A stretch of 36,113 nt of DNA from Thermoanaerobacteraceae bacterium. GTDB lineage: Bacteria; Bacillota; JADQBR01. Below, piece after piece: positions 19,055 through 25,840 of the stretch. The stretch's first letter is position 1, and every line of letters starts with the position of its first letter. The notes under the pieces are model-generated. The model saw only the letters and a list, made by a program, of their open reading frames with translations, was not told the DNA's origin and made no database searches. The stretch is from NCBI GenBank assembly GCA_017656305.1, contig JACDOG010000021.1:1-36113 (forward strand), written 5' to 3'. The translations under genes and the position numbers were made by a program.

Positions 19055-19615
19055 CTACTTTTCAAAACTGTACCCGTCATTAATAAAGTTAACCCCCAGC
19101 AATTTCCACTGGTTGTTCTCGTTTATCAATAATGCTTCCAATTCAGCCGAACCGAAATAATAACGAGCCCTGGCGATATTTTCGTTGTTTGGGCTGATGC
19201 TGGCGCCGCTAAACCGAACCGGCCCGTCATATTTTTTTAATTCCCAGCCCAGATTTTCATTTTTTTGTGCAGTTTTTGCTAGAACCGCTTCCAGTGCGGC
19301 CCGGTCGTTTTCTTTCATTGCCCGGTAGTAAGTATGAATTAAAGTTTCAATTTTACTGCAAAAGGACTGATATTCTTTCCGTTTACTATAATCCTGCCAC
19401 TTTTGTTTAATTAAATTCACGAGGTTTGTTGCTTTCGCAGGGGTTTGGGATATTACCTTGGCCACGGTTTCCTGACCTATCTTTGCCACATTAGTGCCCA
19501 GGAAAGCAAGAGGTGTACCTTCAAAGACGCCGGCATAGCTGAAAAGAAGATAACAACCGGATAAAATGAATAACATCAGTGCAAAAAGAAGTATGTACTT
19601 GAACAGTTTTTTCAC
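19055..19615 (-). CDS. Putative lipoprotein of unknown function
   Basis: The 186-residue product begins with a signal sequence and a lipobox, KYILLFALMLFILSGC, with Cys at residue 21. It is probably lipid-anchored on the outer face of the membrane. The C-terminal half (SFCSKIETLIHTYYRAMKEN, then LEALLINENNQWKLLGVNFI) looks like the alpha+beta fold of SnoaL/NTF2-like or DUF4878-type proteins, but this is only a pattern judgement. The start is GTG 19615 with GGAGGTG upstream. It lies downstream of, and on the same strand as, the multihaem cytochrome, 65 bases away with a hairpin between. Confidence 0.7.
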   Translation of the reverse strand: MKKLFKYILLFALMLFILSGCYLLFSYAGVFEGTPLAFLGTNVAKIGQETVAKVISQTPAKATNLVNLIKQKWQDYSKRKEYQSFCSKIETLIHTYYRAMKENDRAALEAVLAKTAQKNENLGWELKKYDGPVRFSGASISPNNENIARARYYFGSAELEALLINENNQWKLLGVNFINDGYSFEK

Positions 19616-19680: not shown

Positions 19681-22600
19681 TTACTTGTTGTTCAAGAATC
19701 TCAACTTAGCAGCTTCTTCTTTGCTGTAACCCAGTTTTTCGAAGTCGAGGATGCCATCGGAATTGCTGTGACAGTCGTAGCATCTTAATGCTTCATCAGC
19801 CGGACGGATGCGGTGACCAATTATGAAGTAATTTGTACTCCACTTGGTAGTCCATTCACCCGAGTAAGTGTTGGCGTCTCCTGCAGCTTCTATTGCCTTA
19901 TCAATACTACCGGTCTTAAACAGTGCGCCTAGTTTCAGTTTCAGTGGTTCACCGGATACTGCATCCACGATCATGTTTTCACGCATGGTTCTGAACGGGT
20001 AAATACGGCCGTTGTCACGGCTGGCATCGCCAATGGGTAAGTGGCTGGGATGCTTGTGGTCATTCATTGCGCCGTTGTAGTACCAAGCATATTCGGGACG
20101 GAACTTGCTGTCAAAGGAGAAGTTTTCAGCATAGGGACCGTAGAGCCCCGTAGCCTCGTTGTAAACTATTGTACCGAAGTCTTTAACCATCTGTCCGTAC
20201 TGATAAGGAGCGTGACAGGTACGGCAGTCCACCTTACCGGCCGGATTGCCGTCGCCGATAACGTTTTCATTATCGGATGCGTCAAAGTGTTCGTTGATTA
20301 TTGACTTGTCGTGCGGTCTATCCTGGTGACAGTCGGTACACTCAGGACCTACGTCCGGCATCATGTCTCTTGCCCAGGTGTCGTAAGTGTAGCCGGAAGC
20401 CATCTTATGCTTGTTGGTACCGCCAAAGTCATCTTCACTCTTATGACAGTCTACACAGAGTACGTCATTGGCTGCGTGAACATCATACTCAGCGGAGTAA
20501 ATCATACCGCGCTTTAATCCAAGTCCGCCGGCAGCAAAGTCGTGGCAGCGACGGCAGGCTTCGTTGGAAGGTACATCGGAGATACTGGCCAGTACTGCAT
20601 CACGAACGTCATGCTTGAGATATAAGTCTTTGCCGCCTACGTTCGGAGTGGGAGCGCCCGATAACGGCATGCGTTTTCCGGCCGGGATGACCTTGCTGGC
20701 GCTGGTTGTTCTTTCGGCCGGGTCTAACTGGGTTCTGACATCGTAGATGTCAGCGTGACAGAGGAGACATTCAATCTGCTTGACTTTAGCAGTTCCCACA
20801 TCAGCCAGAGTAGCGGAGTTATCCTGGTAACTATCCAGGTCGTTTCCTGCTACAGCTGTGTCGTCTGCATTTTTAGCAAGCACAGGTTGGTAACCGCCGC
20901 CGATGTGACAGCGGGCACATCCTCCAGGACTCTTCTGACCAGTGACAGGGCTTTCCAATACGCCGATCCAGTTGATACCCGCAACTGAATGAGGCGGTCC
21001 TCAGAACCGGTTGAGCATACCCAACCATTCGGTCCAACCGGCGGTGTTGTCGGTTTGCGTGGATTGAGTGTAATGTGCAGTGTTCAGTATTTCCTCATAC
21101 TCGTCATCATGACAACCAGTACAACCGTTGGCTTCTACATAGGCGACATCTATTCCGGAGTGCTTTCCTACGGTAGTTCTGGTCTTGCCCGAGTATTGAA
21201 TTGGCGCAGGAGTTTCATCGCCTGCAGCACCAAATGTATGGTCGTAGGACATGGAGTAATCCATCTTTTCCTTAGTTTCCGAGTGACAGCTGCTGCACAG
21301 GCTGACAAATGTTGTCTGCAGTTGTTCGCCTTCGCTGTTTTTGCCGTGACTGCTGTGGCAGTCGTTGCAGGTTGCTACGCCATAGACGTAGTGCGGACTC
21401 TGCTTATATTCTCCGTATTGTGCCATGGTTGAAGTGGTATAGTCTCCTGTATCGTTGTGACACTGGCCGCAGATTTCTGCCACTTCCGCGCCGGACAAAT
21501 TAGCCGGGTTGGTGATGTTGTTAGCAGAAGGCACCTTTACGTGACGGCTGCCTTCCAGGTGACATGCTTCACAGGTGACGTTGTCGTCTACATAACCGGG
21601 ATTAGCTGTTTTAAATGCATTAAACCGGTCAATGCCGTCTTGACTCCAGGACGTTGGATCAAAGTGCTTGGTTTGCTGCCAGCTGTCATGTTCTTCGTGA
21701 CACTCTAGACATTTGCCTTCGGTGAGACCTACATATTTGGCTCCGCCTTGATTAAACAGCTCGTCGCTGATACTGGCAAAGCCGTTGTAAAGTTTTTCTT
21801 CCTGGCCCGTAAGAGCCCAGTAGCCTTCGTTATCCTTGCCCTTATGGTGGCATGCCTCGCAGGTACCCATGTTGGGCATCCGCTTCAGGGCGGAGGAACC
21901 GGTAATCTCCTTGAATAAAGTGAAGTCCCAGCCTTCAAAGGCAGACCCTTCCAGGTTGGACAAGGAGTTATACCAGTACTCCTGGGAAGTGCCGTGGGCA
22001 ACGTGACAGGTCAAACAGGAGATACCTGTTGTACCTGCTCCCTGGCCAGTTTCAAAGTCCAAGCCGGGGATGTTTTCATCCCACTGAATGCCCACTTGGT
22101 GACGGTATGCTTCGGAGAATATACCTGTAAGTGTGTGTCCACTGCCGGCATACTGGTTATCTGCGCTGCCGCTCTTGGAAGAATAGAACGGTTCTTTTTC
22201 AAACAGCTCTGCAATCTGCGTGTTGTAATCGGTATGGCAGGCACCGCAGAACACGTTGATTCCTTTTACGTGAGTTACCTGTTCCTGATTGCCGTTAAGT
22301 CCCAGGTAGTTTGCAATGTCAAATTTAACTTTTAGTGACGGCACACCGTATACTTTAACGGAAACACCTTCTTGTTCCTTGATTACGGTATAGCCGTTTT
22401 GGTTTGAGTAATCGGGTTTATCTACCTTGGTACCGTTTACCCAAATCTCAAACTGCTCATTGTATGGATAACCGGTTAAGAAGTAATAATAATCTCCAGT
22501 CGGTTCCCCGTCAGGATACAGTGTGGGTACGGCATAACCTTCACCGGCTACATACACTGCATCCTTAACTACTTGTTCCATAACATTATTTGGGTTGGGA

Positions 22601-23226
22601 TTCAGAATACGGGCATTACCGCCCTGGCCGTGCGGGCTATGGCAACTTTCGCAGCCAAATTCCACACTCCAGTTAAGCGGATTGCCGTTGTCGTCAAACT
22701 TGGTGGCCTTTGTAGAACCACCGGGAGCTGCTGCAATTGTTACAGCGCCGGTCACATTGTGGTTGGACAGGAATGCTTCGTTTCCCGTACCGAACATACC
22801 GCCCGGCAGCGGGCTGCCGTCCGGATACTGACCTTCCTGAACGTTGTAGGTGGAAGAGACTGTACCGTCGTGACAGGCCATACAGGTGTCGTACACCGAG
22901 TACCACTGCAACAGGCTTTCGCCTACAGCGGTGTGTGTAGCGTGACATGAAGCACAAGCATCGGTATCTTTGGTGTAATTGGTGTGGATACGGTAGTTAT
23001 CCGGTCTTGCTTCGTTGGGTAAATAGATTTCAAAAGGATAGTTGGTAGTACCTTCAGGATTAAAGGACTTAGGTGTGGCTGAGTAGTAGCGCTCGTAAAC
23101 TGCTCCGGCAACTGGCTGATCATTGGCGTCCAAAGCAGTGAATTTCGCCTGTTCGGCAAAGGCAGCAGTGGCAAAGACGCAGGCCAGGAACAGGCAGAGC
23201 GCCAGCAAGATGCTTACCTTTCGCAA
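19681..23226 (-). CDS. Secreted 19-haem c-type cytochrome, OTR-like, with predicted selenocysteine
   Basis: One frame runs from TTG 23226 (AAGGAGGG 8 bases upstream) to TAA 19681-19683, interrupted only by TGA at 21001-21003. Read as Sec742, the product has 1181 residues. Residues 1-24 are a signal peptide ending AFA. CXXCH motifs begin at about 91, 115, 192, 327, 404, 456, 506, 552, 586, 620, 644, 702 (before Sec) and 770, 820, 891, 924, 963, 1001, 1149 (after). Hemes 12-19 match the spacing of octahaem tetrathionate reductase-type proteins (CTGCH, then CARCHIGGGY, ECLLCH, CHQDRPH, FRPEYAWYYNG, RIYPFRTMR, ALRCYDCHS). From memory, that family has N-x-F-C where this protein has NRF-Sec. No membrane anchor or sorting signal is seen. 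It may be a cell-surface terminal reductase; the substrate is unknown. The alternative is a nonsense mutation splitting the gene. Confidence 0.82.
20961..21003 (-). promoter_or_regulatory. SECIS-like hairpin following the cytochrome UGA
   Basis: On the minus strand, 13 nt after the UGA, CAGTTG (20987-20982), loop CGGGTAT (20981-20975) and CAACTG (20974-20969) form a 6-bp perfect stem. CGCC and GGCG add a lower stem across an internal loop. The loop begins 19 nt after UGA, comparable with E. coli fdhF (from memory), and resembles the loops at 6473, 9523 and 9943. Confidence 0.68.
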
Positions 23227-23271
23227 AACAGTTTCCCTCCTTAAACTTAGTGATAAAAACAGCGCGGCCAG

Positions 23272-23686: not shown

Positions 23687-24850
23687 TTAAGAGGAAATGA
23701 CAAGGGAAGTGAGAAGTTTTGTTCCTAACCAGGCACCGGCCAGCAGTGCGGGTAGAAAGAGATAACCGTGCAGGGACATGGAGCTAATCCCGTTGACCAG
23801 GGCGCCCATGGTGCAGCCCATGGCGATGCGGGCGCCGTAACCCATCAGGATGCCGCCGGTAAAGACGGAGAAAACGTTGCGCCACGAGGGAATGCGCCTG
23901 ATGCGGAACTCGTTGCTGAAAAGTGCTGCCAGAAAAGCACCCAACACGGTACCTATATTGAGAAACAGTTCGTGATATTCCCTGATTCCCAGGTTGAGCA
24001 GCTCGCGGCACCTGGTTGAGGCAAAAAAGAATGAGGTACTGAGGTCAACATTTATCAGTTTGGCCAAAGGCACGACGATAAACGAGAAGGGTTTGGCCAC
24101 GGACCAGGGATAGCCGTGCACCAGAAACCAGGCAACATTTATTGCTGTTATTACTACCGCTCCCGTCAGCATCGGCCAGGGGCGGAAAAGTTTTGCCGGC
24201 AGTGAGCTACTAGCGGTGGCTGCGGTCATGGTAGCGGCGGATAGGGAACTGCGTCTATGTTCTGCCAGGGATACGGCAATGAACAGAGCCAGCAGCAGGG
24301 TAATTTGCAGCAAAACTGCTCCCGGCCATGATACTAGCTGGGGCAGTGCCAGCTTCAGCTGGCTGTATGCGCCGTAGCCCATCCACCAGCCGAAATGGTA
24401 CAGCCCTAAAGCCGAACCTACCAGGATACCTGCCAGGGTGAACAGCTGCTGGGTGTGTCCCTCGCCCACACGCACCAGAGTGATGAGAATACAGTTACCG
24501 CTCAAGACCATACCGATGCCGAATAACAGACCGCCGGCAATGGTGTAGATACCGGCAGGCTTAATAATACCGGGAATGCTGCCTGTCCGGGAAAAGAGCA
24601 TGTACTGGTATGCTGTAAATCCCAGGGAGGACAGCAGGATGATCAATGCTACTGCCCTGGCAACGTAAAAGGACTTGAACAGGAATATGTCGCGCAGGGC
24701 GGCAGCCATGCAAATACGTGACCGCTGAAGGGCAAAGCCCATCATAAGGCCGAAGAAAACAGCCGTGCTGAGCAGGGGACTGCGGGTATACCACAACAGT
24801 GCTGTCGTGATAAACAGCGACAAAATTTTCAATAACTTTTGGTGGTGCAC
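23687..24850 (-). CDS. YeeE/YedE-family sulfur/selenium transporter-like membrane protein
   Basis: The 387-residue protein has roughly ten hydrophobic segments in two similar halves, as in the Sulf_transp (YeeE/YedE) family. Conserved cysteines sit in RSRICMAAALRDIF, LSGNCILITLVRVGEG, ASTRCRELLNLG and GARIAMGCTMGALVNGIS, placed like the substrate-relay cysteines of the thiosulfate importer TsuA. Relatives called YedE/FdhT are linked to selenium metabolism. Either thiosulfate or a selenium compound is plausible, and the selenoprotein-rich context makes selenium attractive but unproven. The start is GTG 24850 with AAAGGAGAG upstream. It is divergent from a LysR regulator, which probably controls it. 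Confidence 0.82.
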   Translation of the reverse strand: MHHQKLLKILSLFITTALLWYTRSPLLSTAVFFGLMMGFALQRSRICMAAALRDIFLFKSFYVARAVALIILLSSLGFTAYQYMLFSRTGSIPGIIKPAGIYTIAGGLLFGIGMVLSGNCILITLVRVGEGHTQQLFTLAGILVGSALGLYHFGWWMGYGAYSQLKLALPQLVSWPGAVLLQITLLLALFIAVSLAEHRRSSLSAATMTAATASSSLPAKLFRPWPMLTGAVVITAINVAWFLVHGYPWSVAKPFSFIVVPLAKLINVDLSTSFFFASTRCRELLNLGIREYHELFLNIGTVLGAFLAALFSNEFRIRRIPSWRNVFSVFTGGILMGYGARIAMGCTMGALVNGISSMSLHGYLFLPALLAGAWLGTKLLTSLVISS

Positions 24851-24905
24851 TCTTATCTCTCCTTTGAAGGATATTCGGCATCATTCGAGAATATAAAAAG
24901 CGTAC

Positions 24906-24925
24906 TGACCTCATGCGTTAGGTCA
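24906..24925 (+). promoter_or_regulatory. Palindromic operator between yedE-like and lysR genes
   Basis: TGACCT-N8-AGGTCA is a perfect 6-bp inverted repeat. GACCTCATG recurs at 24935-24943 over the lysR start codon. The layout suits LysR binding and autoregulation in the divergent control region. Confidence 0.5.
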
Positions 24926-24940
24926 AGGAGGAAAGACCTC

Positions 24941-25840
24941 ATGTTAAATTACCTGGAAGCTTTCTGTACGGTAATTAAAGAAGGCAGTATTAGTGCCGCA
25001 GCCAAGGTAATGCATTTGACGCAGCCGGCGCTAAGTTCCCAGATACAGTCGTTGGAGCAACATTTTGGTGTCAAGCTGCTGGAACGCACCAACAAGGGTG
25101 TTATTCCCACACCTGCCGGTGAAAAAGTGTTTTATTACGCCCAGCGCATATCCACTCTCTGCGAGAATATGCATCAGGAAGTTGAAAGGATTAAAAGTTC
25201 CGGCGAAGGAGAAATTGTCATCGGCGCCAGCAGTACCGTAGGCGGCTACGCTCTGCCTTGCAGCATTTATATCTTTAAAGAAAAATACCCTGATGCGGAT
25301 ATCAAAGTACTGGTTTCCAACACTGAAGAAGTATTTCAGAAACTTGTGGACCGTTCTATCCAGATGGGTATCGTGGAAGGTCCGGTACAGCGCAAGGGGG
25401 TCACCAGTCATGCCATTACATATGACGAACTGCTGCTGATTGCGCCCAATGCCAAACCCTGGACCAGTAAGAAGAGTGTTACCCTGGAAGAGCTGACGAC
25501 CTTACCCTTTATTCTCCGGGAACAAGGTTCGGGCATTCGCAATACCATCGAAAAAGCTCTCGCCAAGCACGGGATCAGGCTGGATGATTTAAACATCGTC
25601 ATGGAGCTGAACGATATAGACGCCATCAAGGCTTCGGTGGAAGCCGAGAGGGGCGTGACGCTGCTGCCGCGCCTGGCGGTGAAAAAGGAACTGTGGACCA
25701 AAACCCTCACTGGTTTTAAAGTAGAGGGAGTTACTTTCCGCCATTATTTTTACGTTATTTACCTCCAGGGCAGGGAAATTATCGGTTTGGAGCGGCAGTT
25801 TCTGGATTTCATTCAATCCAAGGATAGGGGCTTTTGTTAA
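24941..25840 (+). CDS. LysR-family transcriptional regulator
   Basis: This is a standard-length 299-residue LysR protein. The N-terminal winged helix reads YLEAFCTVIKEGSISAAAKV and MHLTQPALSSQIQSLEQHFG, followed by LLERTNKGVIPTPAGE. The effector-binding domain starts with GEIVIGASSTVGGYALP near residue 90. ATG 24941 has AAGGAGGA 8 bases upstream; the longer frame from 24839 would overlap the divergent gene. Family members controlling sulfur assimilation (CysB/CbbR-like) are common, so regulation of the neighbouring transporter and TusA gene is a fair inference. The stop overlaps the TusA stop tail to tail in GTTAAC. Confidence 0.92.
   Translation: MLNYLEAFCTVIKEGSISAAAKVMHLTQPALSSQIQSLEQHFGVKLLERTNKGVIPTPAGEKVFYYAQRISTLCENMHQEVERIKSSGEGEIVIGASSTVGGYALPCSIYIFKEKYPDADIKVLVSNTEEVFQKLVDRSIQMGIVEGPVQRKGVTSHAITYDELLLIAPNAKPWTSKKSVTLEELTTLPFILREQGSGIRNTIEKALAKHGIRLDDLNIVMELNDIDAIKASVEAERGVTLLPRLAVKKELWTKTLTGFKVEGVTFRHYFYVIYLQGREIIGLERQFLDFIQSKDRGFC

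Follow-up and report, generated by a model that had tools for sequence, protein, structure and literature searches.

Does an in-frame UGA within a long multihaem cytochrome gene mark a stop, a lesion, or a selenocysteine (Sec), and, if the last, what would selenium do in such a protein? These questions are raised by a locus on a 36,113-nucleotide contig of a Thermoanaerobacteraceae bacterium (JACDOG010000021.1, assembly GCA_017656305.1; the whole stretch analyzed is called the window below). The reference for the domain in which the codon lies is octahaem tetrathionate reductase (OTR) of S. oneidensis (SO_4144, PDB 1SP3, NCBIfam TIGR04315), which has been termed an enzyme of cryptic function and whose second haem is the catalytic, Lys-ligated one (PMC11024163). 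Overall, the best explanation of the locus, and one that we consider very likely, is a Sec-decoded exported polypeptide that combines an 11-haem relay with a divergent OTR-type octahaem reductase, in which Sec742 takes the place of an invariant Cys.

One reading frame with a single UGA

When TGA is translated as Sec (U), the minus strand from 23226 to 19681 yields a single frame of 1181 residues that contains one U, residue 742, and closes with a stop codon. The TGA for U742 occupies 21003-21001 on that strand, within the flanks AACCGGTTC-TGA-GGACCGCCT, and 439 codons remain open 3′ of it. By translation and motif count, the whole gene (19681..23226, minus strand, as are all features below unless noted) encodes an exported c-type cytochrome with 19 CxxCH motifs, 12 before the TGA and 7 after. 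The sequence-only reading of this locus had described a 19-haem protein at these coordinates and in this frame, with a lone TGA joining two cytochrome open reading frames (ORFs), and re-translation bore out each of these points, including that the TGA is the only one in frame; the strand had not been given.

The gene starts with TTG at 23226, and a Shine-Dalgarno-like GGAGG recognized by eye (23236..23240) lies ~10 nt upstream. Residues 1-24 (23155..23226) are a predicted signal peptide, ending in ATAAFA before EQ, which was also assigned by eye and has a like pattern in a homologue described below (L076); the only two Cys outside haem motifs are both found in it. The 11-haem N-terminal module (residues 25-690; 21157..23154) was delimited by homology and Pfam, with matches to Paired_CXXCH_1, MtrC/MtrF II/IV, and Cytochrom_c3_2. 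The C-terminal 484 residues (698-1181; 19684..21135) constitute an octahaem domain related to OTR by profile and structure comparison, with haem motifs at 702, 770, 820, 891, 924, 963, 1001, and 1149. The TGA interrupts this domain between its haem-1 and haem-2 motifs, and the window protein retains all eight motifs as well as K905 and the invariant His.

Five paralogues in the same genome are about 47-52% identical to the 11-haem module, over residues 25-690 only; they lie on contigs C38, C7, C20, and C29 (two on the last) and have no OTR-domain match. Another genome (G004) holds L076, an uninterrupted frame of 1285 codons that has the fused plan of the window gene and 19 haem motifs, shares 53% identity with the window protein in the N-terminal part and 37% in the OTR part, and carries Cys at the Sec742 column (GMFNRFCPLCGG). 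In C. islandicus (Carboxydothermus islandicus), a multihaem gene related to the N-terminal module immediately precedes an independent Sec-OTR gene (L115); because the two are separate there, the window gene resembles the product of a fusion between neighbours of this kind, or else the C. islandicus pair resembles that of a fission.

Cys and Sec alternate at one column of the OTR family

A phmmer search of the PDB with the full-length protein gave no match, and a profile was required to reach 1SP3. The profile, built from 14 octahaem domains, matched 1SP3 at E = 3.8e-127, and counting along this alignment placed U742 (21001..21003) on Cys64 and K905 (20512..20514) on Lys153, which ligates the catalytic haem of OTR. 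The statement in the sequence-only reading that OTRs carry N-x-F-C between haem motifs at this point was correct: classical OTRs read NNFC, and the position is Cys64 of 1SP3. Across an alignment of 98 OTR domains, the Cys64 column was C or U in every row and was the sole conserved Cys outside haem motifs, and the Lys153 column was K in 97 of the 98 rows.

Raw fetched entries numbered 84 with C and 40 with U at the Cys64 column, which, once repeat fetches were removed, left ~109 distinct domains (~72 Cys and ~37 Sec, window included). Each Sec domain had exactly one in-frame TGA, always at the Cys64 column and nowhere else in the domain. The proposal that Sec replaces a Cys at this site, and the Cys/Sec exchange that it was thought an alignment with OTR-family proteins and homologues might uncover, are thus both supported. 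The window context, GMLNRF-U-GPPHSVAGINW, was nearest in motif to two C. islandicus genes (GMFNRV-U-GPPHAVAVSNW and GMQNRI-U-GPPHAVAVGNW), while other relatives carried Cys (e.g., GMYNRLCGAPE and GMANRFCGFPA). A search of 395 genomes in the phylum of the deltaproteobacterial MAG CSMAG_833 returned 34 OTR homologues with exactly one TGA, among them L137 of that MAG itself (NNF-U-VTIQSNW); the class-level search covered three genomes only. TGA at the Cys64 column thus occurs in independent genomes of two phyla.

Several observations on individual homologues are recorded here. The 34 genes from the CSMAG_833 phylum (L137, L156, L158-L160, and L186-L214) are classical 8-haem OTR genes with their single TGA at the Cys64 column. 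Rare OTR homologues carry F or G at that column (L139 and L136), and one (L152, genome G460) has an in-frame TAA and is a possible pseudogene. The genome of the window also encodes a second, classical OTR with Cys (G000:C5:125323-126186, L079), which scores above the TIGR04315 cut-off and is ~7 kb from selB/selA.

A maximum-likelihood tree of 110 domains required at least seven changes of the Cys/Sec label, five of them forced by well-supported branches. The tree came with warnings of long branches, that of the window included, so the exact sister group of the window domain is unsure. An extra Cys at or near position +8 from Sec (NW-C-[RS]) was found in 28 of 37 Sec domains versus 1 of 72 Cys domains, though the tree offers too few independent pairs and the window protein lacks this residue; it may equally be a selenenyl-sulphide partner of Sec or a by-product imposed by the hairpin, whose sequence encodes it.

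Selenium machinery and candidate SECIS elements

The same genome contains selA (E = 8.8e-161), selB (above cut-off), a tRNA-Sec that directly adjoins selB (ARAGORN and Rfam), and a selD match (G000:C5:69766-70683, L228) that has one in-frame TGA of its own and is a probable second selenoprotein. The genome is therefore equipped to make and insert Sec, and the refutation that the sequence-only reading had foreseen, i.e., absence of the Sec machinery, did not materialize.

Folding revealed a candidate bacterial SECIS element (20966..20990), with a 9-bp stem that starts 11 nt after the UGA and a 7-nt loop, CGGGUAU (20981-20975). By itself this hairpin was not significant (z -0.88, a value equalled or bettered by 38 of 200 shuffles; z -1.75 when a shorter stretch was folded). 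Across the family, the 45 nt 3′ of the codon formed more stable folds than shuffles in Sec genes, with a mean z of -1.36 (n = 37), unlike in Cys genes, where it was -0.02 (n = 74), a difference of p = 3e-11 that is uncorrected for relatedness. Most Sec genes of the CSMAG_833 phylum have CUGGUGC-AGGU-GCACCAG in common, a hairpin which we take to resemble the E. coli fdhF element in form.

Recoding weighed against a lesion or a gene pair

We conclude that UGA 742 is almost certainly decoded as Sec, albeit without protein-level proof. A pseudogene or an assembly error, in which the TGA stems from mutation or misreading of a Cys codon, or the gene was breaking down into halves, could account for a single TGA in an otherwise long frame, and the window SECIS candidate is weak alone, but we find this scarcely tenable: ~36 other distinct homologues share the position of the TGA and have no second one, which argues that the window TGA is not chance, and all 439 downstream codons remain open with the haem motifs, K905, and invariant His preserved. 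Sequencing error was specifically rejected, as recurrence of the TGA in independent genomes of two phyla makes it not credible. We see just as little prospect for two genes, i.e., a 12-haem protein that ends at the UGA and a 7-haem protein that starts downstream. The C. islandicus locus does demonstrate that separate genes can encode the N-terminal module and the OTR domain, yet the separation there precedes the OTR domain and is not at the TGA, whereas a split here would fall inside the domain, after its first haem motif and before its second. Moreover, the downstream ORF starts without a signal peptide, in the absence of which c-type haems are known not to be attached, and an uninterrupted homologue (L076) exists. 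An amino acid other than Cys or Sec at the UGA was also considered and rejected, given the 98 of 98 aligned homologues that carry one of these two.

A divergent domain with an OTR-like predicted fold

The OTR domain scored 101 bits against TIGR04315 (93 bits for the whole protein), short of the curated cut-off of 375, whereas classical Sec-OTRs passed it with 608 and 594 bits. The window domain is hence a homologue outside the curated family, and its divergence means that function cannot be transferred with certainty. We regard it as a divergent, fused OTR variant that should not be filed as a TIGR04315 member and that probably works like one. An AlphaFold model of the domain from 98 sequences had pLDDT 74.5 and pTM 0.79 (pLDDT was 42.7 with 14 sequences), and Foldseek against the PDB returned 1SP3 as the sole match below 0.001 (E = 3.7e-17, TM 0.59/0.66), with low confidence in the loop that carries Sec.

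Gene neighbourhood, proposed mechanism, and substrate

Downstream of the cytochrome gene, and possibly co-transcribed with it, the ORF list gives a small lipoprotein-like protein of 186 aa (19055..19615) that has no Pfam match. Upstream is a YeeE/YedE-type sulphur transporter identified by Pfam (PF04143; 23687..24850), a possible functional partner that is closest to YedE/FdhT and less close to TsdA, and falls below both curated cut-offs. The neighbourhood scan also found a divergent LysR-type regulator (24839..25840, plus strand), possibly of the transporter/cytochrome pair. Elsewhere, a cytochrome b561 gene (PF01292) adjoins classical Sec-OTR genes of the CSMAG_833 phylum in three of three scanned (L137, L196, and L200). 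This context suggests a respiratory role, perhaps in sulphur chemistry, and does not fix the substrate.

Under the mechanism that we propose, SelA, SelB, tRNA-Sec, and SelD would decode the UGA as Sec to yield one exported polypeptide, in which a divergent octahaem reductase domain of the OTR type would follow a fused 11-haem electron-relay module, with Sec742 standing in for the sole invariant non-haem Cys (Cys64) between the haem-1 and haem-2 motifs. Electrons would pass between the N-terminal haems and the octahaem domain; at haem 2, the adjacent selenolate would attack or bind the substrate, likeliest an S-S bond or a sulphur oxyanion (tetrathionate, polysulphide), and the resulting adduct would then be freed by two electrons from the haem chain. 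Cys64 of OTR is presumably close to haem 2 in three dimensions. As Sec occupies the only conserved free Cys of OTRs, selenium probably does its work at the catalytic haem or next to it, though three-dimensional closeness, catalysis, and substrate are all inferred. Without a second free thiol in the mature protein, an intrachain Se-S bond is unlikely, and re-reduction of the selenium probably falls to the haems. A model for such chemistry is TsdA, a haem enzyme acting on thiosulphate and tetrathionate, where a Cys S-thiosulphonate intermediate forms on the active-site haem ligand (PMC4423706), and by analogy the Sec selenolate next to haem 2 may form a TsdA-like adduct that the haem chain reduces. 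We thus infer that the protein is exported and reduces its substrate, most likely an S-S compound or a sulphur oxyanion, in a selenium-dependent manner.

Two other roles for Sec must be weighed against this selenium-dependent sulphur reductase. Sec could be present but structural, protective, or metal-binding, and so outside catalysis; no substrate is known, and the frequent +8 Cys in Sec domains could mean a Se-S redox switch in those proteins. We consider such a role unlikely, however, since the Cys64 column is the family's only invariant non-haem thiol and directly precedes the catalytic haem-2 motif, the window protein has no second thiol, and Sec in other proteins is typically catalytic. 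That Sec is catalytic on a substrate other than sulphur (e.g., nitrite/hydroxylamine, selenite, or an extracellular metal) is a possibility that we doubt and yet take seriously. The N-terminal module resembles extracellular electron transfer proteins through its MtrC/MtrF domain, and the nearest counterpart of the adjacent transporter is YedE/FdhT, which is associated with selenium, although the transporter's family (PF04143) is one of sulphur transport and a thiol or selenol beside a haem is, by inference, better suited to S-S chemistry. In vitro, OTR itself reduces nitrite and hydroxylamine (PMC4484225), which also favors a non-sulphur substrate.

Comparison with known systems

The window domain shares with OTR (1SP3) eight haem motifs in order, the Lys153 and Cys64 columns, and the predicted fold, and departs from it in having Sec for Cys64, the 11-haem fusion, longer spacers, and a TIGR04315 score of 101 versus 375 bits. 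The two C. islandicus Sec-OTRs (NZ_BDJL01000050.1 and NZ_BDJL01000142.1) have a like motif, NR[IV]-U-GPPHAVA..NW, but no 11-haem fusion, and by eye their N-terminal region is non-haem and S-layer-homology-like; conversely, L076 has the fused 19-haem plan with Cys in place of Sec. More distant is ExtKL of Geobacter (GSU2937-2936), a proposed Sec multihaem cytochrome, which is also a c-type cytochrome but carries five haems and a C-terminal part that resembles no characterized protein (PMC1914089, PMC5877670); the ExtKL model NF040886 was not among the NCBIfam matches of the window protein. SmhA of C. ferrireducens resembles the window domain as an octahaem protein that branches beside OTRs in a Gram-positive thermophile, while selenocysteine is nowhere mentioned for it (PMC7829351). 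The Fe(III) reductases OcwA/OmhA, nine- or eleven-haem proteins, entered the comparison through the literature alone (PMC7096707, PMC7829351).

A full-text literature search, limited to open papers, found no description of Sec at the OTR Cys64 residue. Sec-OTRs are nonetheless not wholly new, as a table in a 2026 review has, among GenBank-annotated selenoprotein families, the entry "Tetrathionate reductase family octaheme c-type cytochrome, TIGR04315, WP_331457571.1"; in the portion of the review that was available, this entry carries no motif, description, or discussion (PMC13188914). As far as that partial source allows, the listed protein and the window protein have the broad family and one Sec in common, with classical Sec-OTRs at ~600 bits and the window at 101. 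Three things are new here: a Sec-OTR domain that falls well short of the TIGR04315 cut-off is fused to an 11-haem module, the Cys/Sec exchange recurs, and it is broadly represented in a second phylum.

Conclusions

A residue that has alternated repeatedly between Cys and Sec, with no third state among 98 aligned domains, points to its own chemistry as the core of the OTR enzyme, and its role becomes testable by one substitution in a family whose physiological role is still cryptic. We remain evenly divided on the boldest form of this idea, namely that the Sec742 selenolate of this exported protein acts directly at a high-spin haem with a Lys ligand, to which a fused 11-haem wire delivers electrons, and that repeated Cys-to-Sec conversion in anaerobes marks a widespread, undescribed class of selenium-dependent sulphur/oxyanion-respiring cytochromes. 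Wherever UGA is read as a stop, Sec-OTR genes are liable to be split or called pseudogenes, and such mis-annotation would affect bacteria that are important for sulphur and metal cycling.
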